The position numbers were made by a program, and so were the translations under genes. A stretch of DNA of 64,000 nucleotides, taken from Variovorax paradoxus (GTDB lineage: Bacteria > Pseudomonadota > Gammaproteobacteria > Burkholderiales > Burkholderiaceae_C). The stretch is taken from positions 4,462,001-4,526,000 of the forward strand of contig NZ_CP102931.1 of assembly GCF_024734665.1 (NCBI RefSeq), in the 5' to 3' direction. Position 1 is the stretch's first letter. The number at the start of each line of letters is the position of its first letter. Positions 15,158 to 33,118 of this stretch are shown here, one piece after another. A model generated the notes under the pieces. That model worked only from the letters and a program-made list of their open reading frames with translations, did not search any database and had not been told where the DNA came from.

Positions 15158-17542
<2,385 letters not shown>

Positions 17543-17641: not shown

Positions 17642-17671
17642 ATGACACACACCAGGCCTTGCGATGGCTGA
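17642..17671 (+). CDS. Possible 9-residue leader peptide overlapping the DUF1488 gene
   Basis: A GAAAGGACTCCC ribosome-binding stretch lies ahead of the ATG at 17642, not ahead of the next gene's ATG at 17664. The short frame encodes MTHTRPCDG and its stop codon overlaps codons 2-3 of the next gene in another frame. It may serve to couple translation of the following gene, or be chance; the length gives no coding evidence. Confidence 0.3.
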   Translation: MTHTRPCDG

Positions 17672-17918
17672 CGCCGCCTTCTTTCACGACGCTTCGGGCA
17701 CGGTACGCTTTTCGGTGGCAGTGGAGGGTCACGACGTGAACGCGAGCATCGGAAGAGAAACCCTGCGCTATCACTACCGCACCGGCGAAGACGCCGACCC
17801 GCTGAACACCTACGGCCTTCATGCCCAGGAAATCGACGCGGCCGTGCGGCGCCGTCTGGCACAGGGTTCGATGGAGCCCGTGATGCTGCGGGAAAACGAC
17901 CTCAAGGCTCCCGCGTAG
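17664..17918 (+). CDS. DUF1488-like small protein
   Basis: Protein of 84 residues, MADAAFFHDASGTVRFSVAVEGHDVNASIGRETLRYHY and onward. The layout (short beta-rich start, a conserved ISxEAL-like stretch, then an acidic helix with AVRRRLAQG) resembles DUF1488 proteins, which are common small unknown proteins in Burkholderiales. It stands alone between the UvrA2-type gene and the LysR gene, tail to tail with the latter. The start has no good ribosome site of its own (see the leader peptide at 17642). Confidence 0.65.
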   Translation: MADAAFFHDASGTVRFSVAVEGHDVNASIGRETLRYHYRTGEDADPLNTYGLHAQEIDAAVRRRLAQGSMEPVMLRENDLKAPA

Positions 17919-17922
17919 GGCC

Positions 17923-18852
17923 TCAAACCTTTCGCTTGAGCACGATCCCGCGGATCGTTGCGAGCAACAGCCGCGCGCCCTCCCCCAGCTCGCCGCTGCG
18001 GCGCACAGTGAACCCGACCGGCCCTTCGGTGCTCGACGTATCGATGGCCACGCGCTTCAACTCGCCGCGCGCGATGAAGCCTTCCACCGCTCCTTGCGGC
18101 GCGAACCACACCGCGTCGCAGCGCTGCAGCAGCCCCACCACGAAGCTCGTGTCGGTCGCCTCCACCAGCCGGTTGGGCAGCGCGAGGCCTTGCGCGATCA
18201 GGAAGGCATCGGCCGTGTGCCTGATGAGCGTGCCCGACACCGGCAGCACCAGCGGATGCGCGGCCAGCGCGTCGAGCGTCGGCTTGCGCCGTGACGCGAG
18301 CGGATGGCCGGGGCGCACCACCAGCAGCAGCGGCTCGCTGAAGAGCTGCTCGAAGGCCAGGTCGGCCATGGCCGAGGCCTGCGCGAGGCGGCCGAGCACA
18401 ACGTCGATTTCGCCCTGGCGCAGCTGCGTCATCAGCTGCGCGTTGGTGCCGCTCATCACGCGCACGCGCAGCGCGGGGTGCGCTTCGTTCAGCAGGGCGA
18501 CGGCCTCGGGCAGCAGGTTGGCCACCATGTTCGGCAAGGCGCCGACGGCCACGCGCAACTGGTCGGCCTCGGGCTGGTCCATCGCCAGGCCCATGCCTTC
18601 GCGCAGACCGCGCAGGGCAGAGACGGCGTGGCGCACCAGCACCTCGGCGGCCGGCGTGAGCTCCACGCCGCGGCGGCGGCGCAGCAGCAGCTGGCGGCCG
18701 ACGATCTCTTCCAGCTCGGCAACGGTCTTGGACACCGCCGGCTGCGTGAGCGAGAGCGCCTCGGCCGCGCGCACGAGGTTGCGCTCTTGCGCCACCATCA
18801 CGAGGCACTGCAGATGGCGCAGCTTCAGGCGCGCAAAGTTCATGGCTGACAT
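17923..18852 (-). CDS. LysR-family transcriptional regulator
   Basis: Protein of 309 residues (306 if started at the second Met at 18843). The N-terminal winged helix-turn-helix is clear: LKLRHLQCLVMVAQERNLVRAAEALSLTQPAVSKTVAELEE. The rest is a periplasmic-binding-like sensing domain (about 90-305). It resembles GbpR/PcaQ-type regulators. It is divergent from the Bug-Bug-sulfatase operon, and a LysR-type dyad lies at about -59 relative to the predicted start of that operon, so it probably activates it in response to an organic acid or its product. Confidence 0.9.
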   Translation of the reverse strand: MSAMNFARLKLRHLQCLVMVAQERNLVRAAEALSLTQPAVSKTVAELEEIVGRQLLLRRRRGVELTPAAEVLVRHAVSALRGLREGMGLAMDQPEADQLRVAVGALPNMVANLLPEAVALLNEAHPALRVRVMSGTNAQLMTQLRQGEIDVVLGRLAQASAMADLAFEQLFSEPLLLVVRPGHPLASRRKPTLDALAAHPLVLPVSGTLIRHTADAFLIAQGLALPNRLVEATDTSFVVGLLQRCDAVWFAPQGAVEGFIARGELKRVAIDTSSTEGPVGFTVRRSGELGEGARLLLATIRGIVLKRKV

Positions 18853-18888
18853 GGGGCTTTCCTTGAGCGAGCGGCCGTTTGAATATAA

Positions 18889-18949
18889 CCAGCAGGAATA
18901 CCTGGCAGAAGAGCTTTCAGTTGTGCAGCCCGCGCTGGCCTCCTAGAGT
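18889..18949 (+). promoter_or_regulatory. LysR-type dyad and promoter of the Bug/sulfatase operon
   Basis: A dyad CCAG-N9-CTGG (18889-18905), with AGG-AATA-CCT nested inside it, precedes a possible promoter: TTGTGC at 18921-18926, 17 bp, TAGAGT at 18944-18949. The dyad centre is about 59 bp upstream of the predicted start of transcription, close to the classic LysR recognition position. The promoter match is moderate (4/6 at -10). Confidence 0.5.
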
Positions 18950-18986
18950 TGCCTTCGACACGAAGACATAAGGAGACAACAGAGAC

Positions 18987-19991
18987 ATGACCACCGGTTC
19001 ACCGAACGCCTTCGGCGGCACACGTCGCCGCCTTGCCATCGCCGCCTGCGCGGCACTCGCCCTTGGCACCATCGCCACCCAAGCCATCGCAGCCGATGCG
19101 CCCTACCCCACCAAGCCGGTGAAGTTCCTCACCAACTTCCCGGCGGGCGGCCCCATCGACATCCTCGGCCGCGCGCTGGCCGATGCGCTGCAGAAAGACC
19201 TGAAGCAGCCCTTCATCGTCGACAACCGGCCCGGTGCCGGCGGCAACATCGGCGCCGACCTGGTCGCCAAGAGCCCGGCCGATGGCTACACCGTGCTGCT
19301 GGGCATCGACAGCACCTTCACCATCAACCCGCACCTGTACGCGTCGATGCCCTTCGCGGCCAAAGACCTCAAGCCGCTGATGATCTTCAGCTCCTCGGGC
19401 CTGAGCTTTGGTGTGGCGCCGGGCGTCAAGGCGAAGACGCTGCCCGAGTTCATCGCGCAGGCCAAGGCCGAGCCCGCCACCTTCAGCTCGGCCGGCAACG
19501 GCAGCCCCGGCCACATTGCCGCCGAGATCTTCGCCACCGAAACGGGCGCGAAGATCACCCACGTGCCCTACAAGGGCAACTCGCCGGCCGTGCTGGCGCT
19601 GATGGGCGACGAGGTGCAGGCCGGCATCCTCGCCACGCCGGGCCTGCTGCCGCAAGTCCAGTCGGGCAAGCTGCGCGCGCTGGCCGTTACCGGCAAACAA
19701 CGCTCGCCGCTGCTGCCGCAGGTGCCCACCGTGGGCGAACTGGGCCTGAAGGGCCTGGAGTTCGAAGTGCTCTATATCTCGATGGTGCCCGCCGCCACGC
19801 CCGAACCGGTGATGCAAACGCTGCGCGCCTCGCTGCAGAAAGCGCTGGCGCTGCCCGAGGTCAAGGCCCGGCTGGCCTCGCTAGACATGGTGCCGCTCGC
19901 AGAAACCGGCAACGCAGCCAGCGAGCACTTGGCCGCCAGCCAGGCGCGCTACGGCCGCATCGTCAAGGCAACCGGCATGAAGGTGGACTGA
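18987..19991 (+). CDS. Bug-family (TctC-like) periplasmic solute-binding receptor 1
   Basis: Secreted receptor of 334 residues for tripartite tricarboxylate-type uptake. An N-terminal signal peptide ends near AIAADAPYPTKPVKF. The Bug fingerprints are present: FPAGGPIDILGRALADAL, FIVDNRPGAGGNIGADLVAKSPADGYT, and a central VPYKGNSPAVLALMGDEVQ. Bug proteins bind carboxylates (aromatic acids, nicotinate, citrate-like compounds). No membrane components are encoded nearby, which is typical for these orphan receptors. It is first in a likely operon with a second Bug gene and a sulfatase. Confidence 0.92.
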   Translation: MTTGSPNAFGGTRRRLAIAACAALALGTIATQAIAADAPYPTKPVKFLTNFPAGGPIDILGRALADALQKDLKQPFIVDNRPGAGGNIGADLVAKSPADGYTVLLGIDSTFTINPHLYASMPFAAKDLKPLMIFSSSGLSFGVAPGVKAKTLPEFIAQAKAEPATFSSAGNGSPGHIAAEIFATETGAKITHVPYKGNSPAVLALMGDEVQAGILATPGLLPQVQSGKLRALAVTGKQRSPLLPQVPTVGELGLKGLEFEVLYISMVPAATPEPVMQTLRASLQKALALPEVKARLASLDMVPLAETGNAASEHLAASQARYGRIVKATGMKVD

Positions 19992-20145
19992 TGAGACCGG
20001 TGTTGCCGCGGGGTAAACCCCGGCAATGGTTGATTTGATCAATCGAACGCAGCGTCTTCAGAATCGTCCGCAACCGCGAGCCTCGCGGTCACACTTACTG
20101 GTCACCGCCCGACCGACCGAAGACGACGACAAGGACTTGCCCATC

Positions 20146-21132
20146 ATGCTGCCGACCTCCCTTTTCACCCGCCGCGCCGCCGGCCTGCTGGCCATTGCCG
20201 GCTTTGCGTCGGCCTTCGCCACCCAGGCAAGCGCCCAGGCCAAGTTCGACACCCCCCTGCACATCGTGGTCGGCTACGCCCCCGGCGGCGCCACCGACCG
20301 CGTGGCGCGCATCGTGGGCGACAAGCTCGGCGCCAAGCTGGGCGTGGCGGTGGTCGTCGACAACAAGCCCGGCGCGGGCGGCCGCCTTGCTGCACAACAA
20401 GTGAAGATCACGCCCGCCAACCAGAACGTGCTGATGCTCGCCAACCCCGCCGTGATGATCGTCGCGCCGCTGGTCTTCAAGGACAACAACTACGACCCCG
20501 AGCGCGACTTCGTGCCCGTGTCGTACGTCAACGACTACAACTTTGCGCTTGCCGTCTCGCCCAGCCTGCCCGTGCGCGAGCTGAACCACCTGTTGGCGTG
20601 GATGCGCGCCAACCCCACGCAGGCCAACGTGGGCGTGCCGGCCACCGGCAGCCTGCCGCACTTCTTCGGCCTCATGGTCGGAGAAAAGGCCAACGTGCAG
20701 ACCCAGGTGATCGGCTACCGCGGCTCGGCCCCGCTGCTGAACGACCTGATCGGCGGACAAGTGCCCATTGCCGTCGACACCGAAGACGTGGTCGTGCCGC
20801 AGCATGCGGCGGGCAAGCTGCGCATCCTGGCGCTGTCGGGCGCCAAGCGCTCGCCCTTTGCGCCGAACGTGCCCACCTTCAAGGAAGCCGGCCTCGACCT
20901 TTCCGCCACCGGCTGGAACACCTTCTTCGCGCCGAACAGCATGTCGAAGGAGAAGGTCGAGCGCCTGTCCAACCTGATCCGCGAAGTCATGCAAGACCCG
21001 GACACGCAACGCAAATTCAAGGACTCCGGCATGACGCCGGTGGTGAGCACGCAGGCGCAGACCGCCGCAATGCTCAAGGCCTACCGCGCGCAGTGGGCGC
21101 CCGTCGTACAGAAGTCGGGCTACCAGCCCTGA
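20146..21132 (+). CDS. Bug-family (TctC-like) periplasmic solute-binding receptor 2
   Basis: Second receptor of 328 residues, starting at the ATG at 20146 (MLPTSLFTRRAAGLLAIAGFASAF), which gives an intact signal peptide cleaved near ASAQAKF. The motifs GYAPGGATDRVARIVGD and VVDNKPGAGGRLAAQQV are those of the Bug family, but the sequence differs clearly from receptor 1, so the pair is not a recent duplication. It lies 154 bp after receptor 1 and 29 bp before the sulfatase gene. Possibly the two receptors take up related substrates, one of them sulfated. Confidence 0.92.
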   Translation: MLPTSLFTRRAAGLLAIAGFASAFATQASAQAKFDTPLHIVVGYAPGGATDRVARIVGDKLGAKLGVAVVVDNKPGAGGRLAAQQVKITPANQNVLMLANPAVMIVAPLVFKDNNYDPERDFVPVSYVNDYNFALAVSPSLPVRELNHLLAWMRANPTQANVGVPATGSLPHFFGLMVGEKANVQTQVIGYRGSAPLLNDLIGGQVPIAVDTEDVVVPQHAAGKLRILALSGAKRSPFAPNVPTFKEAGLDLSATGWNTFFAPNSMSKEKVERLSNLIREVMQDPDTQRKFKDSGMTPVVSTQAQTAAMLKAYRAQWAPVVQKSGYQP

Positions 21133-21161
21133 GCCCCTTTTAGAAAAACCGTCAAAGAGAC

Positions 21162-22478
21162 ATGACCAGACCCAACATCATCTTCATCGTTGCCGACGAC
21201 CTCGGCTATGCAGACCTCGGCTGCTACGGCGGCCGCGACGCCGTGTTCGGCCCCGTGTCGCCCGTGCTCGACGGCCTGGCCGCCAACGGCCTGAAGCTCA
21301 CGCAGGGCTACGCGAACTCGCCCGTGTGCTCGCCCACGCGCTTCGGCATGATCACCGGCCGCTACCAGTACCGCCTGCGCGGCGCCGCCGAAGAGCCCAT
21401 CAACAGCAAGAGCCGCGGCAGCACCACGCTCGGCCTGCCCACCGACCACCCCACCCTGCCGTCACTGCTGAAAGCCAGCGGCTACCAGACCGCGCTCATC
21501 GGCAAATGGCACCTGGGCTACCCGCCCACCTTCGGCCCACTGCGCTCGGGGTACGACGAATTCTTCGGCCCCATGTCGGGCGGCGTCGACTACTTCACCC
21601 ACTGCGATTCCACCGGCCGCCACGACCTGTGGCTTGGCGAAGAAGACAAGCAGGAAGAGGGCTACCTCACCGACATCCTCTCCAAGCGCGCGGTCGAGTA
21701 CGTGGAGCGCATGTCAGAGCAGGAAGCGCCCTTCTTCCTGAGCCTGCACTACACCGCCCCGCACTGGCCATGGGAAACCCGCGACGACGCGGAGAAGGCC
21801 CCCACCGTCAAGGACAACCTGTTCGACCTGGCCGGCGGCAACATTCATGTGTACCGCCGCATGATCCATCACATGGACGAAGGCATCGGCTGGATCATGG
21901 CCGCGCTGCAAAAGCACGGCATGGCCGACAACACGCTGGTGGTGTTCACCAGCGACAACGGCGGCGAACGCTTCTCGGACAACTGGCCGCTGGTGGGCGG
22001 CAAGATGGATTTGACTGAAGGCGGCATCCGCGTGCCATGGATCGCGCACTGGCCTGCGGTGATCGGCAAGGGCGGCGAGAGCACGCAGTTGTGCATGACC
22101 ATGGACTGGTCGGCCACCATGCTCGACGCGGCCGGAGTTTCAGCGCACTCGGACTATCCACTGGACGGCGTGTCGCTGATGCCTGTACTCAAGGATGCGT
22201 CGAAGAGCTTTCGCCGGCCGCTGCACTGGCGCATGAACCATCGCGGGCAAGAAGCGATGCGCGATGGGGACTGGAAGTACCTGAAGGTGGACGGGAACGA
22301 GTACCTGTTCAACATTCCTGCTGATGAGCGGGAGCGGGCTAATCTGGGGAAGAAGGAGCCCGAACTACTCGCTGCGATGCGAGCTGATTGGGCGGCTTGG
22401 AATGCGACGATGCCGGCTATTCCGGAGGATGCGACGGTTAGCTTAGGGTATTCGGTTCGGGATATGCCGCAGAGGTGA
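21162..22478 (+). CDS. Type I (formylglycine) sulfatase
   Basis: Sulfate-ester hydrolase of 438 residues. The metal-binding start RPNIIFIVADDLGYADLGCYGG and the CSPTR active-site motif show a type I sulfatase whose Cys must be converted to formylglycine. Further signatures are GKWHLGYPP and VVFTSDNGGERF. No signal peptide is visible, so it appears cytoplasmic and would act on an imported substrate. No maturase gene is in the window. The last 70 or so codons use noticeably more A/T at third positions than the rest, just before the low-GC island. It is probably the catabolic gene of the Bug operon. Confidence 0.92.
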   Translation: MTRPNIIFIVADDLGYADLGCYGGRDAVFGPVSPVLDGLAANGLKLTQGYANSPVCSPTRFGMITGRYQYRLRGAAEEPINSKSRGSTTLGLPTDHPTLPSLLKASGYQTALIGKWHLGYPPTFGPLRSGYDEFFGPMSGGVDYFTHCDSTGRHDLWLGEEDKQEEGYLTDILSKRAVEYVERMSEQEAPFFLSLHYTAPHWPWETRDDAEKAPTVKDNLFDLAGGNIHVYRRMIHHMDEGIGWIMAALQKHGMADNTLVVFTSDNGGERFSDNWPLVGGKMDLTEGGIRVPWIAHWPAVIGKGGESTQLCMTMDWSATMLDAAGVSAHSDYPLDGVSLMPVLKDASKSFRRPLHWRMNHRGQEAMRDGDWKYLKVDGNEYLFNIPADERERANLGKKEPELLAAMRADWAAWNATMPAIPEDATVSLGYSVRDMPQR

Positions 22479-22601
22479 GAGGCCGCGCGATAAGGGGCCT
22501 GAAGACGCAACCGGCGCGTACAAGAACGACATTTGAAGGGGTATCAGCGGGAATCGCCTCAAGAGCGCTTTTGAATCTATTACGCGGCTCAACGAACGCA
22601 A

Positions 22602-23060
22602 CTACCGGATCGCAGCGACCAACGCCTCGTAGTGATCCTTGTCCGCCCTCACGCAGTCCATTGGTTGCGCAACAGCCTCCTCGATGTCTGCTAGGACGTT
22701 CGCGTGCGTCATTAGCCACTCAATCCCTTCGAGGTGACTGAAGTGACGCAAGAGCTTGAGGATGCGGATCGCCTTTTCTGGTCCAAATAAAGGACCTGCT
22801 CTCTGATCGAGGTTCGACTTCCCGCTCAAGGGAAGCTTTGCATACGTGTAGAACTCCAAGAATCGGTGAGCCGCGTTGGGAAGCGCGAGCAGATGTTCAG
22901 CATCCGCTTTGCTTGGAGACTCATTGAAGTTCTGGAGAACATGAAAGAGGTAGTGGTACTCGGGGGATATGCCGAGCCTGAAACAGGCATGCTTGTTCGT
23001 GAGCGTCGAACGCGTCAAGCTCAACCCCGTCGTCATGAAGTACCGACTCTCATCTGGCAA
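22602..23060 (-). CDS. Unknown protein, possibly 5'-truncated
   Basis: A frame of 152 residues from a TTG at 23060, or 144 from the ATG at 23036. It contains a plausible folded sequence (HACFRLGISPEYHYLFHVLQNF, KAIRILKLLRHFSHLEGIEWLMTHANVLADIEEAV) but no family I recognise. Coding-looking sequence appears to continue a few codons upstream of the TTG, and no good ribosome site precedes either start, so the gene may be a remnant of a longer one. It lies downstream of the NACHT gene on the same strand, after 208 bp, within the low-GC island. Confidence 0.5.
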   Translation of the reverse strand: MPDESRYFMTTGLSLTRSTLTNKHACFRLGISPEYHYLFHVLQNFNESPSKADAEHLLALPNAAHRFLEFYTYAKLPLSGKSNLDQRAGPLFGPEKAIRILKLLRHFSHLEGIEWLMTHANVLADIEEAVAQPMDCVRADKDHYEALVAAIR

Positions 23061-23268
23061 TTCGCGCAGTATGGAAAAAACTCAAAGTTGTGTGTTGAGA
23101 TGAACGGCTGTTAGCATGTCATTGTCGACTTTCCCGTGTTTGGTTCTTCCTTGAAGAAAGCGGCTCTGATGGTGGAATACACGATGCCGAGCACCGTTGC
23201 CGACGAATGCCGCCGGCGAGTGCGCGGCATGGTGCGCGAACCGCTGCGCATTGACGCGATGGGGTCGC

Positions 23269-26200
23269 TCAGCGGGCTTCGAACTCAACCCCTCGATCGA
23301 CAAGCATCTGACGGACTTCGGGCTTCAGCGCGTTGGGGCTGTCGTCAACAACGACTTTCTTGAGAGCAGGAGCTTCGAACAGAGGCTCCATTTTCAGGTG
23401 CGTTTTTTTTCCGCCGATGTATAAACGCTCGAGGCTGGAAAAATCGCCTTCGAGTGTCACGTTGGCGCCTTGCATGATGCGCAGGGAAACGATCGTTCCG
23501 GGTAATTTCAACGTCGTAGGCTCCTCGACGGAGATGGTCAAGGTATGCAGTGCAGAACAGGCGCTCAGATCTAGGAGATCCCCCACGCTACCCACGTGAA
23601 GGTTGAGTTCTTCGAGGTAGCGACTTCGCACCTGGCCCAGCACGCGCCCGACGCAAGAGTAGACGACCTCTATCTTCGTGAGCTTTGGCAGCTCATCCAA
23701 TGAGGGCATTTCGATCCTCGCATCTTCCCAAAAAAATTCGATCGACAGCGACTTAAGGTCCGGCAACTCCTTGAGTGGGCCGAGATCGTAGATTGTGGGC
23801 GAGGCGCTCCGGCCGCTGTACGAGTCGCCCTTCAGATGCAATCTTTCCAATCGATTAAACCGAGCCACGGAGCTTAGAAGCGTGGCGTCGTTGAGAATCA
23901 ATCCGAACTCAGTCAATCCCTGAAGTTTCGCAAGAAGTGGGAGCGCTGCGGCCTCGACCGGAACAGCGAGGCGGACATCGTCGAGCGATTCGATCGCCAC
24001 GACACGCTTCAAATCGGCGAGGGTGATGAGCTTCGCCTTATCCTTGGGACGTCGTCTCTCCTCGTCCACCTCCACGGACGTGCGCGGCTCTTGGTCGGGT
24101 ACCTTGCTTCCTGTTGGGGCGCTGGACCCAAGCTCGTCCTCTAGGCTTCCCAAGTAAAGCCAGCGCCACTTCATGAAGCGGCTGATTGCCTCCTCGAATG
24201 TTTTGGCTTTCCCCAGATGCTCGCCCCTATAGCAAAGCAATTCCACCAAGCGCACCAGCTCGTCAATGGGCGGCAAATCCTTGCGTCCGGGAGAGGATGC
24301 TTTTAGCAATTCGCCCCACCAAGGCATCTTCATAACGACGCGATCGCGATAGGCTCCCATATCGAATCCCGTCCATGCATCGAAGAGCTCGCCACGCACC
24401 AACGGCGCGTCTATCCGCGCGTAGCTCTCGATGACCGAGAGCATTCTTTCACCACCAATCATCGCCGCGCACCGGATGCAACCCGCGACCGCCATCGCAG
24501 AGGCGTTCTGGTGGCCCTCGATAAGGTCTGGATAGAGCGACGCCGCTGGCGCGAGGAGCGGGGCTTGCATCAATGAGATCGGAGGAAACAAGGTCTTCGA
24601 CCGCTGAAGCAACCTGCTCAGCAGTTCCGGAGAGAGGTTGCTCGACCCGGTTTCCAGGCAGCAAACCGCAGTGACGTCGGCCTCCGCGGAGCGGCGGCCC
24701 AGGCCGAGAAATGGCTTCTCCAGAAGGCGCTGTATCAGCTTGTCGCGCGCGACACCCTGAGAATGGCCCACGGCGAACACGATCGTTTCGCGCCAACTCT
24801 CTTCCTTCGCCCGCTCTACGAGAAGCCCCACATCACCGGATTGGACCGCGGCGCGAGCACCCATGTATTCAAGAAATGTGCGGTGTATGAAATCCACCAA
24901 ACCGTGCTGAGGTCGGCGCAGAACGCCGCTCCGTTCGAGAAGCTCCTGCAGCACCAGGGTTGCGTCACCCTGAATTGAGGAGAGATGACGCGGCAACGAC
25001 AGCGCCAGTTGGGTCCGAATTTCGTCTTCCGACGCTTCAGTTATGCCGTTGCGCAGCATCCAATAGGCCAACCTATCGAGCAGATCCTGCTTACCTTGAA
25101 AATTAATTTCTTTCAGTCGGGTGGCTTGGATGTCCCGATCACTGTCGCGCCGGCTGATCAGCATTTCCAGGGCCGTCTGATACAGCGTCATACGGTCGTT
25201 GGGTAACCGCTGGTTCAAGTGCCAATTGAGGGCGCAGAGCATGGCGCACAGCAAAGGGTTGGACGCGAGATTTCGGATCGCCGGCCGCTCGCGTAAGGCG
25301 CGGTGCAAGGAAAGCCGATGGGCATCCAGGTCCGCGAGGCGCCCCTCCTGCAACACGTCTTGGGCCACGGCTTGATGCCACTGGGTCACAAGCATTTCGC
25401 TTTCCCGCAGCCGTAACGGTTCAAGGGTCAGTGCTTCGAATGCGTGTCGCTTCAACGCAGCTCCGACGGAATGATGCGGAGAGTCCGCGTCCAATGCCGC
25501 CGGTCGCGAACTCACCACGAAGACTGCATCCGGAAAAGTATCCACCAAGGAGATCAGCCAGTGGATGAGTTTGGATCGCTTCGAGATAGGAAGCTCGTCG
25601 ACACCGTCGATCAACACGAGCGCCCGATGCTCAAGTACGTCATGCATCCAGAGGGTGGGCATCGTATGGGCGATGGTGGAAGCGAAGCCTCCACGCAGGA
25701 AGTTCTCCGGCGTGGGGATATCTACATTTTCCTTGGCAAAGTCCCGAAGCCGCAGGTAGATGGGGATGCGGTGGTTCCAAGAGCTCAGGTTGCCGCTGAA
25801 ATCCCTGCGCGCGGCGCGGACCGCGATCCACTGCATTAGCGTCGTCTTTCCGGTACCAGCCTCGCCCCGGACGAGCAGCCGCATTTTCTCCGGCAGGATC
25901 GATTCGACGGTGCCACCGTCGTTCTCCCCGGAGGTGTTCGCCCGCAAGGTCACGTATGCAATCGAAAGCGGATATTCGCTCGACACCTCATTGAGTTGCC
26001 TGACGCCAAACAGATGCATTTGATCGAGACTTCGCACTAGCGCGCGACGATAGTTCGTCTCGAAATTCTGACTCTCGCGAGCTCTCGTACCGACCGACTC
26101 CTCTCGCAGCGCCACGACGGCGTCGAGAACCTTGTGCAGGTCTTGCGTCAAGCCCGCCTGTCTCACGAGCATCTCGCGGGCTTGCGCCAGTCGGAAATCT

Positions 26201-26670
26201 GGTAGCTTGTCCACGAGCCTCACCACGTAAACGCAGGTCTCCCGCAGCAGCATGTCGGCCGCTAGCGTGGCATCGCCGCCAAGGGAATCGAATTCATTGG
26301 CGTGCTGTTGCCGAAGGCCCTGATATAGCTTGTCGGGATCCAGGTTCGAGCGAAGGGTTTCCGAGGCGATGCCCTTGGTCTCGAGGACGCTGGCCACCGT
26401 CTCGGTCGCAGCCATACGGTCGGATTCCGGCAGCCCGCTGAACTCCCGTTCGAGCGCGTGCTCCAGCCGTTTCGCTACCTCGTCCTGCAGATCCTCGAAG
26501 AGACGCTTGGCTTTGCGTCGCTCCTCAAACTGGGAGAGCCGCGCATCCACTAGGTCGCCTAGCTCGTCGACGACTGTCTCGGAGTTGAACGGCTCCGGCA
26601 AGACCCATTTGGCCAAGAGCTTAATCGCCGGCGCGGCGAGCTTGAACGAAAGCACTTCCAGAATCGCCAT
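23269..26670 (-). CDS. NACHT-domain STAND NTPase with C-terminal leucine-rich repeats (bacterial NLR)
   Basis: Protein of 1133 residues. The start at 26670 is chosen because AGGAG lies 5 bases before that ATG; a TTG-initiated frame runs 31 codons further upstream. Order: a helical N-terminal region beginning MAILEVLSFKLAAPAIKLLAKWVL (resembling NACHT N-terminal helical effector domains), then the NACHT NTPase with Walker A GEAGTGKTT (269-277), Walker B LVLIDGVDEL (351-360) and VFVVSSRP. The winged-helix signature FIHRTFLEYMGARA (595-606) and a helical middle follow. From about residue 880 there are irregular leucine-rich repeats (LERLHLKGDS, LKSLSIEF, LEELNLHVG, LERLYIGG). This is the layout of bacterial NLR-like anti-phage proteins (bNACHT); the effector activity is not obvious. 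Confidence 0.88.
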   Translation of the reverse strand: MAILEVLSFKLAAPAIKLLAKWVLPEPFNSETVVDELGDLVDARLSQFEERRKAKRLFEDLQDEVAKRLEHALEREFSGLPESDRMAATETVASVLETKGIASETLRSNLDPDKLYQGLRQQHANEFDSLGGDATLAADMLLRETCVYVVRLVDKLPDFRLAQAREMLVRQAGLTQDLHKVLDAVVALREESVGTRARESQNFETNYRRALVRSLDQMHLFGVRQLNEVSSEYPLSIAYVTLRANTSGENDGGTVESILPEKMRLLVRGEAGTGKTTLMQWIAVRAARRDFSGNLSSWNHRIPIYLRLRDFAKENVDIPTPENFLRGGFASTIAHTMPTLWMHDVLEHRALVLIDGVDELPISKRSKLIHWLISLVDTFPDAVFVVSSRPAALDADSPHHSVGAALKRHAFEALTLEPLRLRESEMLVTQWHQAVAQDVLQEGRLADLDAHRLSLHRALRERPAIRNLASNPLLCAMLCALNWHLNQRLPNDRMTLYQTALEMLISRRDSDRDIQATRLKEINFQGKQDLLDRLAYWMLRNGITEASEDEIRTQLALSLPRHLSSIQGDATLVLQELLERSGVLRRPQHGLVDFIHRTFLEYMGARAAVQSGDVGLLVERAKEESWRETIVFAVGHSQGVARDKLIQRLLEKPFLGLGRRSAEADVTAVCCLETGSSNLSPELLSRLLQRSKTLFPPISLMQAPLLAPAASLYPDLIEGHQNASAMAVAGCIRCAAMIGGERMLSVIESYARIDAPLVRGELFDAWTGFDMGAYRDRVVMKMPWWGELLKASSPGRKDLPPIDELVRLVELLCYRGEHLGKAKTFEEAISRFMKWRWLYLGSLEDELGSSAPTGSKVPDQEPRTSVEVDEERRRPKDKAKLITLADLKRVVAIESLDDVRLAVPVEAAALPLLAKLQGLTEFGLILNDATLLSSVARFNRLERLHLKGDSYSGRSASPTIYDLGPLKELPDLKSLSIEFFWEDARIEMPSLDELPKLTKIEVVYSCVGRVLGQVRSRYLEELNLHVGSVGDLLDLSACSALHTLTISVEEPTTLKLPGTIVSLRIMQGANVTLEGDFSSLERLYIGGKKTHLKMEPLFEAPALKKVVVDDSPNALKPEVRQMLVDRGVEFEAR

Positions 26671-26775
26671 CTCGGCTCCTATTGTCATGTTGTCGTGTGC
26701 TTCAAACGGCGAGTTGCCTCGCGGCCGCGCATGAAGAATTCCGCGCTGGAAGCGGTCCGCCAAATGGGCACTTGA

Positions 26776-26804
26776 TGTTAACCATCCATCCTCACGGATG
26801 TAAA
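26776..26804 (-). promoter_or_regulatory. Weak candidate promoter for the NACHT gene
   Basis: On the minus strand TTTACA (26804-26799) is followed after 17 bp by TTAACA (26781-26776). The -35 match is good, the -10 poor. It would give a leader of about 100 bases before the ATG at 26670. A small dyad CATCC-TCAC-GGATG overlaps the -35 element. Confidence 0.3.
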
Positions 26805-26935
26805 CGGACGCGGCATTCGAATACGAGTGTGAGCAACGCCATCCTCGACTGGCTCATCCGACTATGCCGGGGCTAACCTCATCACGGCCGCAACTCGATA
26901 GCCTCCGGGCATCCGCTTGATGAAATGATTCAACG

Positions 26936-27331
26936 TCACTTCGTTGTGGGCGCATGAAGCATGCTTCCGACGCTGAAAACAATGATTCCAGCGAGAAAGA
27001 AAACATGCTGCGGCCAGCAGACCCATTTGAGCTTTGCACCACCTTCAGGCCCCCAAAGCCAAAAGATAGTGAATCTTGCCTCGATGTCATAGATTGAACT
27101 GCCTGCTACAAGCCTCTCGCCAACCAGTGGTATCAGTGCAAGGGTGAGAATTGCAAAGACGATCGAAAGACAAAAGAAAGCAATGGTCCATTGCAGCGCT
27201 GAACCATCCAAGACCAATGGCTTTGTGGCCACCCAACCCAAGGCCGCGACGGTCGTAACGAGGAGGTAGTTTGTCCAGTCTTTAAAGAAACCGAGGGAGG
27301 CGATCAGTTGTGGGATGTCCGGCTGACTCAT
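26936..27331 (-). CDS. Small integral membrane protein beside the NACHT gene
   Basis: Protein of 131 residues with three predicted membrane helices (about 22-38, 46-72 and 106-125) and a short loop containing GERLVAGSSIYDIEARF. A strong ribosome site GAGAGGAG precedes the ATG. I recognise no family. It lies 265 bp upstream of the NACHT gene on the same strand and in the same low-GC segment, so it may be a partner or a passenger of the defence island. Confidence 0.7.
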   Translation of the reverse strand: MSQPDIPQLIASLGFFKDWTNYLLVTTVAALGWVATKPLVLDGSALQWTIAFFCLSIVFAILTLALIPLVGERLVAGSSIYDIEARFTIFWLWGPEGGAKLKWVCWPQHVFFLAGIIVFSVGSMLHAPTTK

Positions 27332-27420
27332 CTGAAACTCCTCTCATGTGTGCATCTGGTGCAGCTATGGCGCTGAACGTTTGACATGAGCGACCTTTCA
27401 TCTGGACGTCGACCCTTGTG

Positions 27421-28191
27421 CTACCACACGGCATCCAGCGCCGGCAAAAACTTCAGCTCCGCAAGTCGTCGAAACCCCTCAGGCGTGGGATGCAATTCAT
27501 TGGCCCATTGATCCTCCGCCAACGTACCTGTCGTCTTCAGCGCAACGATCTTTCCCAAGCCAGGCTCTGCTGCCAATGCGTCCTGTGCTTTGCCAAAGGC
27601 AGCTACAAGATCTGCGAAGAGATCCTTGCGCAAGGAGGCCGGCACTTGGCATTTCTCCATCGGCACCTTGAGCCAATCTGCCGGACCAAAAACACCATGG
27701 CCGGTTGCGTACGCGTCGTCATAGTTGTGGAGTACGACCACGGCAGTTTGGTTGTAGGTTCTGAAGAGTTTGATCAGCCTTCGGTAGTGGCCGATGATCT
27801 TGTCCAGTGCTGTCGAAGGCTGCCCATCCGCGTAGCAGGACGGAACCGACTGACAGGCCGAGCAATTGGCTTTGATCAGTTTCGGAAAATTCTTCTGCCC
27901 CACGATGTCGTTTCCACCGCCGCTAAGCAGCAGAGCCTTGACCAGAGGGCCGCGTGCATAGAAATCGAAAGTGGCCTTGATCGACCCGGCGTACTTGCCC
28001 TGCCACTCCGAAGCCTCTGAGCCGTTGTAGCCCGCCACGACTATCGACTGCAAAACGCGGCGCGTCGCAATCTCGCCGAGCAGGTTGTCGAACGGGTACC
28101 AGAACCAGGAGTCGCCCACGGCGAGTGTTGTCGGAGACGCACCGCGCATCAGGGCATCTTGATGCCCATAGAACAAGTTCGGGATCGGCAT
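27421..28191 (-). CDS. SGNH/GDSL hydrolase-like protein
   Basis: Protein of 256 residues started at the ATG at 28191, which has an excellent GAGGAGGG ribosome site. SGNH blocks are visible: VGDSWFWYP (nucleophile Ser28), GGGND (Asn94) and NELHPTPEGF (His234). The residue three before the His, normally the catalytic Asp, is Asn231, so the triad is altered or the enzyme uses a Ser-His dyad. No signal peptide is present. Six cysteines lie in 110-181. The substrate could be a lipid or carbohydrate ester, and a toxin or effector role is possible but unsupported. It lies in the low-GC island. Confidence 0.8.
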   Translation of the reverse strand: MPIPNLFYGHQDALMRGASPTTLAVGDSWFWYPFDNLLGEIATRRVLQSIVVAGYNGSEASEWQGKYAGSIKATFDFYARGPLVKALLLSGGGNDIVGQKNFPKLIKANCSACQSVPSCYADGQPSTALDKIIGHYRRLIKLFRTYNQTAVVVLHNYDDAYATGHGVFGPADWLKVPMEKCQVPASLRKDLFADLVAAFGKAQDALAAEPGLGKIVALKTTGTLAEDQWANELHPTPEGFRRLAELKFLPALDAVW

Positions 28192-28232
28192 GGGAACCCT
28201 CCTCGGCGCCACGTTAGCGCAGAGGAAAGTTC

Positions 28233-28262
28233 TAGGGCATCCCGCTTTTGTGGGATGCCCTA
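28233..28262 (-). terminator. Perfect 11-bp hairpin overlapping a stop codon
   Basis: Arms 28233-28243 and 28252-28262 are perfect complements (TAGGGCATCCC) around an 8-base loop. On the minus strand the first arm begins with the TAG stop codon of the 91-residue unknown gene, and the hairpin ends 42 bases before the start codon of the SGNH gene. No U-run follows, so it may be an attenuator or processing site rather than a full intrinsic terminator. Confidence 0.55.
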
Positions 28263-28535
28263 CCCCAGCCCACTCTCCTGCAACAACATCTCCGCCTCCC
28301 GCGCCAGATCCGCAGCAATCCAGAGCATGCGGTCCCGGTGCATCTCCCCTGCTTCCTCGAACCACCCGTTGCCGTCGCCATAACAGCACCACAGCAGCGA
28401 GTTCAGCTGCGCCAGTTTGATTTCGAGGAGTGCCCTTGCTTCGTCGCTTGTCCGCGTGGCGGGTTTCGACGGGCCGCGTGTGCGGCGACGGGAAGATTGG
28501 GGCGTAGAACGCCCGGCCATAATTCGCTCAGCCAT
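28260..28535 (-). CDS. Small unknown protein
   Basis: Protein of 91 residues starting MAERIMAGRSTPQSSRRRTRG, with GAGGAAG at a workable distance. A basic Ser/Arg-rich N-terminus (1-35) is followed by a helical region LEIKLAQLNSLLWCCYGDGNGWFEEAGEMHRDRMLWIAADLAREAEMLL. The pattern resembles small accessory-genome proteins of Burkholderiales in general, but I cannot name a family. It precedes the SGNH hydrolase gene on the same strand and may be its partner. Confidence 0.6.
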   Translation of the reverse strand: MAERIMAGRSTPQSSRRRTRGPSKPATRTSDEARALLEIKLAQLNSLLWCCYGDGNGWFEEAGEMHRDRMLWIAADLAREAEMLLQESGLG

Positions 28536-28578
28536 TTTGGTGTGCTTCCTCTGAAAAGTTGTGCACGTCATGTGGTCA

Positions 28579-28669: not shown

Positions 28670-29015
28670 AAGGCGGTTCATTCACGCATTCAATCGGTCG
28701 TCTTGGGGGTGTTCCTTTTGCGGTGGATGTTCGTCGCCCACAGGGAGGGGCGACTTGTCGATGGGGCATTCACTGTAGAGAAGCGAAGCCGCGCAAGGGA
28801 AAAGATTTCGTCGAGGATTTCTCGAATCGAAGAGATATCTGCCGGGGCGCTGCGGCGAGACACAAAGCCATGACAGTCGGGCGGCGCAAAGGCTGCGTGC
28901 TGTGCATGGCGGGCACAATCTGCGGCATGCCAGCGACCATCACTCTGCACGCCCGGGCGCCGACACGGCTGGCCTTTGGCGCGTGCAAGAGTCCATTTGC
29001 CCCAGGCGGCAGTGC

Positions 29016-30053
29016 ATGCGAATCCACGAACTGAAACAACGACTCCGCGAAGCCGGCGCGGGCCCCAGCCACGAGCAGCGCATCTTGCGGCTGTGGTCGC
29101 ATGCACTGCCTCGCAACAGCGGCAGGCGTCTGCCGGGCACCTTCTTTCCGTCGTCGCTGCTGGAGGCCCTGCCCGCCATCGAGGCCGAGCTTGCGGGGCT
29201 GGCGCGCATCCACGCGGTGCACCCCGGCGCCGATGGCTCGGAGCGGCTGCTCGTGGCCCTTGCGGACGGTCAGACGGTGGAGAGTGTGTTGCTGCCTCGC
29301 GATGGCCTGTGCGTGTCTTCGCAGGTTGGGTGCGCCGTGGGGTGCCAGTTCTGCATGACAGGCCGCGACGGCTTGCTGCGCCAGGTAGGCAGCGCCGAGA
29401 TCATTGCCCAGGTCGCCCTCGCGCGCATGCGCCGGCCGGTGCGCAAGGTGGTGTTCATGGGCATGGGCGAACCGGCCCACAACCTGGACAACGTAATGGA
29501 GGCCATCGACCTGCTCGGCACGGTGGGCAACGTCGGTCACAAGAACATCGTGTTCTCGACCGTGGGCGATCCGCGTGCGTTCGAAAGGCTGCTGCAGCAA
29601 CGCGTGAGGCCTGCGCTGGCGCTCTCGTTGCACACGACCAAGGCCGAGTTGCGCAAGAAGCTCCTTCCGCGCGCGCCGGGCCTGACGCCCGAGGAAGTGG
29701 TCGATGCAGGCGAGCGCTATGCGCGGGCCACCGGCTACCCGATTCAGTACCAGTGGACACTGCTGGAAGGCGTGAACGACGGGCAGGATGAAATCGACGG
29801 CATCGTGAAGCTGCTCTCCGGCAAATACGGCGTGCTGAACATGATTCCGTTCAACGCGGTGGATGGCGTGGCGTTCAGCCGCCCATCATGGGAGCGCTGC
29901 GAAGAGATTGCGCGCACGCTGCATCAGCGGGGCATTCTGACGAAGCTGCGCAATTCGGCCGGGCAGGATGTGGATGGCGGGTGCGGTCAGCTGAGGGCGC
30001 GCGCAGCCGAAGTGCGGGTAACGCTTCATCGAAGGGCTGAAGACTCTCGTTGA
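29016..30053 (+). CDS. RlmN-like radical SAM methyltransferase, probable paralogue
   Basis: Protein of 345 residues of the RlmN/Cfr family, which methylates adenosine in 23S rRNA (A2503) and some tRNAs through a radical mechanism. The 4Fe-4S cluster cysteines are Cys106, Cys110 and Cys113 (CAVGCQFCMTG). The methyl-carrying C-terminal Cys is Cys323 (DVDGGCGQL), and GMGEPAHNLDNV and LALSLHT are family motifs. The canonical Burkholderiales rlmN is longer and lies with ndk, pilF and ispG; here none of those is adjacent. This copy is therefore probably a second, divergent member. The start at 29016 (MRIHELKQRL) lacks a strong ribosome site. Confidence 0.85.
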   Translation: MRIHELKQRLREAGAGPSHEQRILRLWSHALPRNSGRRLPGTFFPSSLLEALPAIEAELAGLARIHAVHPGADGSERLLVALADGQTVESVLLPRDGLCVSSQVGCAVGCQFCMTGRDGLLRQVGSAEIIAQVALARMRRPVRKVVFMGMGEPAHNLDNVMEAIDLLGTVGNVGHKNIVFSTVGDPRAFERLLQQRVRPALALSLHTTKAELRKKLLPRAPGLTPEEVVDAGERYARATGYPIQYQWTLLEGVNDGQDEIDGIVKLLSGKYGVLNMIPFNAVDGVAFSRPSWERCEEIARTLHQRGILTKLRNSAGQDVDGGCGQLRARAAEVRVTLHRRAEDSR

Positions 30054-30073
30054 AGGCGGCCTGCTCCCTCATC

Positions 30074-30820
30074 TCACGTGAGGGAGGCCATCCAATCCCA
30101 GACCTGCCCGGGCGCCTCGACCATCACGTTGTGGCCATGCGGGCCGAGGTCGCGGGCATCGGGGTCGAGGGAGCGGGTCTGCTCCAGCGTTACCAGTGCG
30201 TCGTTGCCTCCGCGGGCCAGATGGATGGGGCAGCGCGCCAGGGTCATCAGTTCGGACAACGGTGGCTTGCCTACGGCGTTGGCTCTGGGGTCCATTGCGA
30301 GGCGCCAGCCGTCGTTGTTGTCGTTATGCGCGATGCCTCGCGCGACGACGGGTGATGCTGCGTTGGTGATTCCGGCGAGGCCGGAGACCTTCAGGTATCT
30401 GGCCCATGCTTCTGCTTCCGTGGGGAAGCTCTTGGCAGGCTGGGATGCCAGCGTTTCCATGCGGCGGAGCTCTTCATCGCTCCATGCGATCTTGATGCCG
30501 GCTGCGAAGACGCGGTGCGGTGTAACGCCGAACCAACCTGTTGCCAGTGCAAGGCCGATCACTCCGCCCAGCGAGTGCCCGAGAACTACGAGGCGCCCCT
30601 CGGGATGGACGTGCGGCAGCACGGCGCGCCCGACGCTTGCTGCGTATTGGCCGATGGCATAGGAGTCTTGCCGATCGGATTGGCCGTGGCCAGGCAAGTC
30701 AAGAGCGAGCCAGCGGGCACTGGCCTCGGCGCACATGGGCGACCACACTGCGCCTGTTGCGCCCATGCCGTGCAGCATGAGGAGGAGGTCTGGGCCTTGG
30801 CCACCTTGTTCTGTGTACAT
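30074..30820 (-). CDS. Alpha/beta hydrolase
   Basis: Cytoplasmic hydrolase of 248 residues from the ATG at 30820; the frame is open 12 codons further. The oxyanion region LMLHGMGATGAVW, the nucleophile elbow GHSLGG, an acid in GGNDALV and the His in GPHGHNVMVE complete a Ser-Asp-His triad. The substrate is unknown. It is followed at a short distance upstream by an AraC-type regulator on the same strand, which may control it. Confidence 0.87.
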   Translation of the reverse strand: MYTEQGGQGPDLLLMLHGMGATGAVWSPMCAEASARWLALDLPGHGQSDRQDSYAIGQYAASVGRAVLPHVHPEGRLVVLGHSLGGVIGLALATGWFGVTPHRVFAAGIKIAWSDEELRRMETLASQPAKSFPTEAEAWARYLKVSGLAGITNAASPVVARGIAHNDNNDGWRLAMDPRANAVGKPPLSELMTLARCPIHLARGGNDALVTLEQTRSLDPDARDLGPHGHNVMVEAPGQVWDWMASLT

Positions 30821-30892
30821 GTCCGCTGTCTCCGTCGACGATGGGCAAAAGGGCAACTCAGATCCGAGGTGCGGGTGGCGGAAGACGGCGGG

Positions 30893-31843
30893 CTAACCGT
30901 TGTGCCGCCAAACCCCTGGTGACACACCGTACTCTCGCTTGAAGGCACGGTTGAAGGCCGCTTCCGATTCGTAGCCGACGCCCTCGGCGATGCGCGCAAG
31001 GTTGGCCTGGTCTCTACGCAGCATGCCTGCGGCCAGGATCATGCGCCAGTGCGCCAGGTAGTGCATGGGCGGCGCGCCCACCAGCTCTGTGAAACGGTCC
31101 GCCAGCACACTGCGCGAGATGTGGGATTCCTGTGCCAGCGCCTCCACTGTCCACGCGCGTGCGGGCTCGCCGTGCATCAGCGCCAGGCAGCGGCCCACGT
31201 GGGGGTCGCGCAAGCCAGCCAGCCAGCCGGGGTTGTTGGCGGGCATGGACTCGATATAGCCCCGCACCACTTCCGCGAACAGCAACTCGGCCACCTTGGC
31301 GACCAGCAACTCCGAGCCGGGTGCTCGCGCGGCCGCGTCGCCCAGCACAAAATTGACGGATTGCTCGATCCACGGCCCCGCCGGCCTGCTGCGCAGCGCC
31401 GTGATGAAGAGGCCCGGAAGGTTGGACATGACGGGGTTGGGCGCATCGCCTTCGTAGGTGAGCCAACTGCATACGAGCACCGTGCGATCGCCATCGCCGC
31501 CGTAGCGAATGCGTTGCACCGCGGGCACCTGCGGGCGCACGACATGTTCGACGTCCACGGCCGCGTGGCGCAGGTGGCTCCCCAGGACATGCGGATCGCC
31601 GTGCGGCACGGCGATGACTTCGCCGGCGTTCACGCGAATCGGCTCTGCCCCCTGGAGTTGCGCCCAGCACTGCCCCTGCAGCACCAGATGGCAGATGGCA
31701 AGGCGTGGCGCGCCGGGCTTGAGCACCTGGGCCATGTCCGAGCTCTTGGGGACGTTGAAGCACCAGGGCGCGCGCATGTCTCCGTTCAGGAACAGGGCGC
31801 CCTCCAGCCGGATGGTCCGCAGCACGTCCGACAGCACGTCCAT
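30893..31843 (-). CDS. AraC-family regulator with cupin sensory domain
   Basis: Regulator of 316 residues. The first half is a cupin-type ligand domain (PRLAICHLVLQGQCWAQLQG, VIAVPHGDPHVLG) of the AraC-associated cupin_6 kind. The C-terminal AraC HTH is WTVEALAQESHISRSVLADRFTELVG with ARIAEGVGYESEAAFNRAFKREYGVSP. The start at 31843 is preceded by GAGAGGTG; the GTG at 31849 lies inside that site. It is divergent from a DUF4242 gene, and two CGGTCAA repeats 21 bp apart lie between them. Confidence 0.9.
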   Translation of the reverse strand: MDVLSDVLRTIRLEGALFLNGDMRAPWCFNVPKSSDMAQVLKPGAPRLAICHLVLQGQCWAQLQGAEPIRVNAGEVIAVPHGDPHVLGSHLRHAAVDVEHVVRPQVPAVQRIRYGGDGDRTVLVCSWLTYEGDAPNPVMSNLPGLFITALRSRPAGPWIEQSVNFVLGDAAARAPGSELLVAKVAELLFAEVVRGYIESMPANNPGWLAGLRDPHVGRCLALMHGEPARAWTVEALAQESHISRSVLADRFTELVGAPPMHYLAHWRMILAAGMLRRDQANLARIAEGVGYESEAAFNRAFKREYGVSPGVWRHNG

Positions 31844-31874
31844 AGTCACCTCTCGAGCAGCAAGGCCGGGGTTT

Positions 31875-31902
31875 CGGTCAATAACTCCGGAGGGGCGGTC
31901 AA
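31875..31902. promoter_or_regulatory. Direct repeat, possible AraC-type operator
   Basis: CGGTCAA occurs at 31875-31881 and again at 31896-31902, a 21-bp period that places both copies on the same face of the helix. It lies in the 131-bp gap between the divergent AraC-type and DUF4242 genes, upstream of both. Two half-sites two turns apart are typical of AraC-family operators. Confidence 0.5.
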
Positions 31903-31974
31903 ACCACGGGCCTATCGAGTCGGCACCATGGGGCCTGGTCGCTTTTGGCCGATTCTACAAACAGGAGTATTAAT

Positions 31975-32247
31975 ATGCCCAAGTTCGTAATCGAAAGAGA
32001 CATCCCCGGCGCCGGCAAGCTCACGCCATCCGACCTGAAGGCCATCTCGCAAAAGTCCTGCGGCGTCCTCAGCAGCATGGGCACCGACATCCAATGGATC
32101 CACAGCTACGTGACGGGCGATCGGATCTATTGCGTCTACCAGGCGACCGACGAGGACCTCGTGCGCCGGCACGCCGAGCTCGGCGGCTTTCCGGCCAACC
32201 GGGTGGACCGGGTGTACAGCGTCATCGACCCGGCCACAGCCGAGTAA
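31975..32247 (+). CDS. DUF4242 protein (nickel-binding SCO4226-like family)
   Basis: Small protein of 90 residues, MPKFVIERDIPGAGKLTPSDL, with an ACAGGAG ribosome site. The ferredoxin-like fold pattern (FVIERDIPGAG, IQWIHSYVTGDRIYCVYQA, HAELGGFPANRVDRVYSVIDP) matches DUF4242, of which one Streptomyces member binds nickel. It may be the target of the divergent AraC regulator. The role in this organism is unknown. Confidence 0.82.
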   Translation: MPKFVIERDIPGAGKLTPSDLKAISQKSCGVLSSMGTDIQWIHSYVTGDRIYCVYQATDEDLVRRHAELGGFPANRVDRVYSVIDPATAE

Positions 32248-32317
32248 GGAGAGCGCAAGAATAGTCGAGGGTGCAGGCTGGTGGAGATCAACCGGAACAA
32301 GCAGAATTCCGCCACGA

Positions 32318-32518
32318 ATGACTACCCGGCAAGGTCGACTTTTCTTCTTTTCGTTTGGCGCAGTCCTGGCCATCGTCGGTGGCTTGATGTGGCATTGGGG
32401 CGAGCCGGCCGGCCTCTGGACCCTGGGGCTTGCCGGCTGCGGGTGTATTGCCGTGAGTGCCGTGCTTTCGGACGCCCTCTTCGAGAAGACGATCAAATTC
32501 TTGAGCCTGTTCTGGTAG
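32318..32518 (+). CDS. Small two-helix membrane protein
   Basis: Protein of 66 residues with two predicted membrane helices (about 8-26 and 31-50), MTTRQGRLFFFSFGAVLAIVGGLMWHW at its start. The region between this and the DUF4242 gene is 70 bp on the same strand. No family recognised. Short length keeps the confidence moderate. Confidence 0.5.
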   Translation: MTTRQGRLFFFSFGAVLAIVGGLMWHWGEPAGLWTLGLAGCGCIAVSAVLSDALFEKTIKFLSLFW

Positions 32519-32565
32519 TGCCAATCGGCTAATACCCAACATTCATCTTGCCGGCCAGAAGAAGT

Positions 32566-32976
32566 ATGTTTATGCGATTTCTCAAGCTGTTTCTTTGCGT
32601 CGCAGGTGCTCTCTTCACCGGAGCCTTCATGTTTCTCCATGGTTTCAATGCATGGCGCAATGGAGAAATCGTTGTCAGGCACAAGGGGAAGGAGCCGTTC
32701 ACTGCAATGGCTGAAGGCCCCTTTCCCTTCAGCTTCGCGACAGAGGTTTGGGGGTGGATGACTATCGGGGCAGCATTCGCCCTGCTCGGAGTGGTAGGCA
32801 TCGTCAAATTCCTCATCAGTACACCGACACAACGACAAGCGGCGCTCACCCGACTGGATGGAGTAACGCTTCGCGACTCCCGCGGCGAGAAGATTCCGTG
32901 GTGGGCAGCGATTGCAGTCATCGGTGGGGTTGTGGCGTTCTTTATTTACCTGGCATTTAGAGTTCACACGTCATGA
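32566..32976 (+). CDS. Membrane protein of unknown function
   Basis: Protein of 136 residues from the ATG at 32566 (a second ATG is at 32572). Three membrane segments are predicted: near the N-terminus (MFMRFLKLFLCVAGALFTGAFMF), in the middle (MTIGAAFALLGVVGIVKFLI) and at the C-terminus (AIAVIGGVVAFFIYLAF). A soluble loop between the first two contains RHKGKEPFTAMAEGPFPF. The layout resembles many small unknown inner-membrane proteins; no motif identifies a function. Confidence 0.65.
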   Translation: MFMRFLKLFLCVAGALFTGAFMFLHGFNAWRNGEIVVRHKGKEPFTAMAEGPFPFSFATEVWGWMTIGAAFALLGVVGIVKFLISTPTQRQAALTRLDGVTLRDSRGEKIPWWAAIAVIGGVVAFFIYLAFRVHTS

Positions 32977-33118
32977 GTCGTTGATCGGAGCCGATCACCC
33001 GCGGAAGCCTGCCCACTTTGGTCCCGTTGGGGCGCGAAGAAAATGTCGGGGTGCTGAGCGTGCTGCGCGTGCCGGCCTGGCTAGACGAACTTGCAGCCCA
33101 GAACCAGATAGGTGCAAT

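Follow-up and report, generated by a model that had tools for sequence, protein, structure and literature searches.

A NACHT-leucine-rich-repeat protein with an N-terminal NNH1 domain in a low-GC slot of Variovorax paradoxus, a candidate stand-alone bacterial NLR

In a stretch of 64,000 nucleotides of Variovorax paradoxus (RefSeq assembly GCF_024734665.1, contig NZ_CP102931.1, forward-strand positions 4,462,001 to 4,526,000; hereafter the window), part of a genome made of one 7.29-Mb contig, we found an intact gene whose product resembles an immune receptor and has the module order of the human inflammasome receptors NLRP3 and NOD2. The protein joins an N-terminal NNH1 domain, a NACHT NTPase and C-terminal leucine-rich repeats (LRRs), and with NACHT and LRRs in one polypeptide and an NLR-like overall fold it fits the class of bacterial nucleotide-binding leucine-rich-repeat receptors (NLRs). 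We consider it likely that the gene is a stand-alone bacterial NLR, which would most probably protect against phage by abortive infection, a function that we infer throughout. The anti-phage role proposed in an earlier, sequence-only reading of this DNA is plausibly right, and the NLR layout proposed there is borne out by profile searches, by the predicted fold and by relatives of the same layout.

The NACHT domain scores 59.8 bits against a Pfam cut-off of 26.7 and carries a Walker A motif, GEAGTGKTT, from residue 269 (window 25866-25840), a Walker B motif, ALVLIDGVDELP, from residue 350, and a sensor-1 motif, VVSSRP, from residue 385. Across a cross-phylum alignment of 41 rows (the window protein and 40 of 79 distant loci) no row departs from the Walker residues, R389 or H596, the last of which we take to be the winged-helix histidine of NLRs; the intact Walker A and B motifs of the earlier reading are confirmed. 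The LRRs, also proposed then, are weak in the single sequence (LRR_14 at E 0.006, below the Pfam cut-off, and unlisted at E 0.001); they become clear with a profile built from 22 family members, which hits LRR structures at E about 1e-32 (among the 60 of 337 matches listed), and the repeats are evident in the predicted structure as well. In the AlphaFold2 model (pLDDT, the predicted local distance difference test, 86) most of the chain is confidently modelled, and its best solved-structure matches in Foldseek are the full-length animal NLRs NLRP3, NLRC4 and NOD2, at E 1.0e-14 or better. The multi-domain superpositions on these have a high root-mean-square deviation, about 14-30, which we put down to hinges. 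The 1133-residue frame is open and intact, and its length had been given correctly, since most homologues begin at the MAILEVL column of the alignment, which favours the methionine at 26670 as the start. For the same reason we rejected a TTG start 31 codons earlier, which a mechanical open reading frame (ORF) call had chosen to give 1164 residues.

The homologue search, which scored only the 7999 candidates sharing most words, returned 70 homologues, the best 48% identical over 95%, and 53 of the 70 carry NNH1 in precomputed annotation. NNH1-NACHT relatives span many phyla: Pfam finds NACHT in all 41 rows of the cross-phylum set, NNH1 in 40 and LRR_4 in 21, plus further LRR families. The repeats evolve fast. 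For each of the 231 pairings among 22 close relatives, identity is lower in the LRR region than across the NACHT-winged-helix region (48% vs 87% for P0008 and P0010), and pairwise identity averages 0.51 in NACHT, 0.54 in the module that follows and 0.21 in the LRR region. Distribution among the genomes searched is patchy, which fits horizontal acquisition. NNH1 is above cut-off in one of 398 genomes of the phylum (the window's own) and in two of 101 of the genus (its own and G091), and in none of 14 control genomes; a search with the window protein matched 5 of 198 relatives, including its own genome, the other four partially, and a family profile at E 1e-60 matched one of 399 genomes of the order, again its own, with few candidates scored per genome. 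In G091 (L002 / L157) the NNH1 piece lies in a 202-residue frame and is either a relic or a separate acquisition.

The N-terminal region had been described as helical and without an effector that could be named. Its helical nature stands, the model being all-helical, and a family name does exist: the Pfam match to NNH1, 105.2 bits against a gathering score of 27 and spanning positions 3-177 of 177, makes the protein a member of that family. Of the homologues that lack NNH1, one bears a trypsin-like domain (slightly below cut-off) and two bear calcineurin-like domains (one of the two rescanned) at their N-termini, which suggests that NNH1 occupies the effector position. No death-fold domain (CARD or PYD) was matched in the protein by Pfam at E 0.1, and the NNH1 model matched no solved chain of any kind below E 0.001. 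The residues kept in 90% or more of 36 N-terminal segments (L137, F159, L168, R170, F203 and Y207) include no cluster of catalytic polar residues; some polar positions are conserved among the closer 22 sequences, for example E107 and R201 (numbering of the 1164-residue frame).

Ahead of the bundle the model places a hydrophobic helix at residues 2-23 (pLDDT about 80), and residues 27-45 fall under pLDDT 50. Counting rows with a residue at each position, alignment A2 has E5 in 35/47, G or A at 12 in 47/49, K17 in 38/49, K21 in 33/49, W23 in 38/48 and L24 in 38/49, and alignment A3 has E in 22/27, G12 in 25/31, K17 in 26/33, W23 in 31/37 and L24 in 29/37. The window protein departs from this signature with A at 12 and V at 23 (W at 22). 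Start codons in A3 and A4 were picked either by a script or by inspection, and of the 36 A4 rows 5 start after most or all of the helix, so that missing rows are in part start-choice errors or real absences. The mean hydrophobicity of the helix is modest. We suspect a role for it mainly because the segment is conserved in loci titled actinobacteria, cyanobacteria, Chloroflexota, KSB1, Bacillota and proteobacteria.

Some relatives lie beside phage or mobile-element genes. In an Ardenticatenaceae metagenome-assembled genome (L093, 5339-15764) an NNH1-NACHT gene, whose LRR_4 match stays below threshold, sits in opposite orientation between the terminase (phrog_2, 3.5e-35) and major-head (1e-32) genes of a prophage that also shows a weak portal match (4e-5). 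On one IMG/VR contig (L161, 5908-10426) the gene of an NNH1-NACHT protein (NNH1 E 1.8e-19) adjoins a replication-nicking gene (phrog_91, E 2e-174), and on another (L162) a NACHT protein with a sub-threshold NNH1 is encoded beside a serine recombinase (Resolvase, E 1.6e-39). An integrase lies near the L108 gene and a transposase near the L082 gene. The contigs L161 and L162 held the only confirmed relatives among 2.9 million viral contigs scanned, and none of the deposited phages matched, so carriage by phages is rare.

The gene lies in a slot of 5.8 kb beside a sulfatase-like gene, which has a match in 69 of 73 same-genus genomes, the window's own included (73/121 overall); DNA similarity with relatives ends at 22472-22489. 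GC content is 0.575 within the slot (22489-28259) vs 0.677 for 10000-22400, and GC at third codon positions is 0.71 for the NLR gene vs 0.85-0.90 in three left-flank genes. The low-GC island noted earlier is therefore real, without being special to the NLR gene, as GC content drops again over a second stretch at about 32-39 kb. The interval then proposed, 22602-28535, does contain the NLR gene and takes in unrelated genes too. Left-flank matches occur on plasmids of Comamonadaceae (Comamonas 80%, Variovorax 73-75%) and a few Streptomyces. We compared 27 stretches from 22 genomes, in 10 of which the sulfatase-like gene and the 103-residue marker on the right share one stretch; for the remaining 12, the markers were on different contigs, partly matched, or the marker lay outside the stretch. 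Slot length ranges from 528 bp (G046, nearly empty) to 13.2 kb (G033). PADLOC was run on 20 of 53 script-called slot ORFs from ten slots, picked by eye, and in five gave strong matches to genes of known or candidate defence systems: QatA/C/D in G038, AbiEi/AbiEii in G064, PDC-S06 in G049, PDC-M49A in G016 and PDC-M01A/B in G061. Weaker matches were to protein kinases in G010 (PD-T4-6, mad6 and others; a broad kinase match), to DUF626_VIII and Avs4 for a 1769-residue protein in G048, to an HNH-effector-like N-terminus in G033 and to LmuA in G039. Ten control genes outside the slot were unmatched, save one helix-turn-helix gene to Csa3 (E 1.4e-4). Judged by such matches, the comparison shows a slot (window 22478-28260; L036, L037, L044, L046, L060-L064) that takes putative defence-type genes in the genus.

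Other occupants of the slot in relatives include the G048 protein, which is STAND-like (signal transduction ATPases with numerous domains), a kinase/PP2C cluster in G010, and a DUF6119 protein in G049 (L060:4780-6396, E 8.5e-132; no PADLOC match), a possible uncharacterised defence candidate. In G064 and G046 no more than about 0.1-0.5 kb separates the 103-residue marker from sequence that matches the window from 39210 onwards, so the window has about 10 kb more at 28674-39210, a segment that includes the second low-GC stretch and a radical-SAM gene (28902-30053) that by eye is RlmN/Cfr-like.

The neighbours (Table 1) offer no apparent partner, which the sequence-only reading had thought might be required: they are what is left of a decayed defence-type gene, a small protein of wide occurrence, and an SGNH-like gene found again where the NLR is missing. 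The remnant matches residues 553-748 of a 748-residue G049 protein in two frames, at 40% and 49% identity (tblastn); ORF 22602-23060 covers residues 589-748, and residues 553-589 are in another frame with a stop. No complete AAA_13 protein with an N-terminal P-loop is encoded at 22608-23182, where that C-terminal part alone is left. The NLR stop lies 87 bp beyond the remnant, which is probably a scar, the slot having changed occupants at least once. The 131-residue protein, by eye a membrane protein, occurs in one of 101 genus genomes, its own. Copies or pieces of the SGNH-like gene lie in the slot of relatives that lack this NLR. Pfam found no peptidase among the scanned neighbours.

Table 1. 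Features of the NLR gene and its slot, in window positions.
Feature	Position	Strand	Evidence
NNH1-NACHT-LRR protein (bacterial NLR), 1133 aa	23269..26670	minus	ORF, Pfam, start by alignment, fold
N-terminal hydrophobic helix, residues 2-23, then low-confidence linker	26602..26667	minus	AlphaFold2 and conserved signature
NNH1 helical domain, residues 10-183, effector position in layout	26122..26643	minus	Pfam PF22733 E 5.5e-30, all-helical model
NACHT NTPase domain, residues 265-433	25372..25878	minus	Pfam PF05729 E 3.9e-16, motifs, invariance in 41 rows
Leucine-rich-repeat region, residues 884-1132, presumed sensor	23275..24021	minus	Profile match to LRR structures, model, fast divergence
Sulfatase-like gene, left slot border	21162..22478	plus	Match in 73/121 genomes; sulfatase-like annotation in plasmid relative
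Frameshifted C-terminal remnant of AAA_13 / PDC-S06 gene	22608..23182	minus	tblastn with full-length G049 gene; PADLOC PDC-S06 E 5.7e-14
131-aa hydrophobic protein, passenger not partner	26936..27331	minus	302 homologues, best 91% identical
SGNH/GDSL-like hydrolase gene (256 aa with the start used in G049), found repeatedly in the slot	27421..28191	minus	Pfam Lipase_GDSL_2 E 1.4e-6, below its cut-off
103-aa gene, right-side slot marker	28260..28571	minus	Homologues in relatives; no Pfam match

We hypothesise that at rest the protein would be closed, with ADP bound in its NACHT/winged-helix module, as family knowledge and the conserved H596 suggest. The C-terminal LRRs, by their position and fast divergence, may detect a phage product or a change in the host, upon which the NACHT domain, with its intact motifs and its NLRP3/NLRC4/NOD2-like fold, could exchange nucleotide and oligomerise. 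Oligomerisation would then cluster the NNH1 domains as effectors within the same polypeptide, a role that we assign to NNH1 because no shared partner gene was seen and because a few of its NACHT relatives have a peptidase-like or phosphoesterase N-terminus. We prefer a non-enzymatic mode of action via the conserved N-terminal helix, possibly at a membrane, and this is the least certain step. A stronger version makes the NNH1 family a bacterial counterpart of the plant resistosome, in which a conserved helix (approximately E5, L-x-L-G, A-K, K, W-L in the majority of members) on a flexible linker would be released by LRR-driven oligomerisation and a ring of such helices would permeabilise the membrane, giving a one-protein, sensor-to-pore NLR without caspase, gasdermin or nuclease; we regard this as speculative and unlikely in its full form. 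The defence role draws independent but circumstantial support from the slot and from the NNH1-NACHT genes that lie beside phage genes.

Several observations weigh against this interpretation. PADLOC and NCBIfam returned weak P-loop-level matches alone for the NLR protein, and our literature search, which did not cover the key 2023 bNACHT paper, turned up no assay of protection, be it for the gene itself or for any NNH1-NACHT-LRR protein. The NNH1-NACHT proteins of L108, L161 and L162 (NNH1 sub-threshold in the last) match no LRR family at E 0.001, and the L161 protein suggests that NNH1-NACHT cores may be combined with other sensors. Most of 18 distant loci have ordinary-looking neighbours. 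As for the effector, NNH1 alone gave no useful solved-structure match, none at E below 0.001, so that its proposed mode rests on negative evidence and conservation; the helical hydrophobic moment does not exceed that of permuted sequences (at least as high in 2876 and 1892 of 20000 permutations), and many members have N-terminal hydropathy on the borderline of that expected for a membrane helix. In the slot, some occupants are ordinary metabolic genes and 5 of the 20 ORFs run in PADLOC had no match, which, together with their selection by eye, means that the result shows what the slots contain and is no measure of enrichment.

An effector in the chain could instead be an enzyme of an unrecognised kind, such as a nuclease or NADase, since bNACHT25 and bNACHT32 use N-terminal nucleases according to the part of PMC12169576 that describes them; the trypsin- and calcineurin-like domains of some homologues (two of the three rescanned) would agree with it. 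The all-helical model and the lack of a catalytic polar cluster at the 90% level speak against an enzyme, and we find it rather unlikely. Alternatively, NNH1 could be an inflammasome-like adaptor that recruits a separate effector, possibly the SGNH-like hydrolase or the 131-residue protein, whose genes are on the same strand just upstream of the NLR gene, inside the low-GC slot; cell killing by an enzyme of lipase type, or by a membrane protein, would be plausible. However, the SGNH gene or pieces of it are present in G049, G060, G051, G016 and others, where no full-length NLR relative was found (G051 has a weak NACHT match alone, on another contig). The 131-residue protein has relatives up to 91% identical vs 48% for the best NLR homologue, which indicates separate histories, and the 18 distant loci share no partner, save two Amycolatopsis. 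An adaptor role is quite unlikely in our estimate; the gene of a recruited partner might also lie at another place in the chromosome.

Doubt could also fall on defence itself. Bacterial STAND NTPases, in the portion of PMC7159879 that we cite, have mostly been studied as transcriptional regulators, so the protein could have a non-defence role such as transcriptional control. We think this very unlikely, as Pfam gives no DNA-binding domain for the window protein and none is among the 25 commonest families of the 41 members, defence-type genes lie in the same slot of relatives, and the spread is patchy and the LRR divergence fast. That the gene is decaying or inactive, like the remnant beside it, is brought to mind by that frameshifted neighbour and by the lone NNH1 piece in G091, but the open frame, the retained NACHT motifs and family-invariant residues, and a protein confidently modelled over most of its length make it very improbable indeed. 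A stand-alone NLR acting in phage defence is the reading that we prefer.

The animal-type NACHT-LRR order, the fast-diverging LRR region and an effector-position NNH1 that spans many phyla come together here in one protein, which makes the gene a compact single-gene test case for phage sensing by LRRs and for an NLR effector that may work without enzymatic activity. In the same genus, the slot next to the sulfatase gene offers a practical site for finding more defence genes. The protein belongs to a known class, and the action of its NNH1 domain we found nowhere described, nor did we find a function given for the family. With NLRP3, NLRC4 and NOD2 it shares the module order after the N-terminus and has a similar overall fold, at 11-18% identity; animal NLRs have CARD or PYD where this protein has NNH1. 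Plant coiled-coil NLR resistosomes (MADA-type N-terminal motif) are alike in having a conserved N-terminal segment before a helical bundle, an analogy for the mechanism idea alone, and they use NB-ARC instead of NACHT (PMC12169576, in the part cited here). NACHT modules with LRRs exist in bacteria and have been called bona fide bacterial NLRs (Conte et al. 2025, PMC12169576). For bacterial NACHT proteins a part in phage defence is established; those described in the cited part of that paper are without LRRs and, if an effector is named, have a nuclease. Like them, the window protein is a single chain with an N-terminal effector position, a central NACHT and a C-terminal sensor; unlike them, it combines NNH1 and LRRs, where clade 14 has SNaCT and clade 6 has NCH1 and a nuclease (PMC12169576, same part). 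The CARD-NLR / LypABC system is similar in tying a bacterial NLR-like ATPase to cell lysis and different in being, in the sections of PMC13236601 cited, a tripartite system with peptidase domains, of which the scanned neighbours of the NLR gene carry none.

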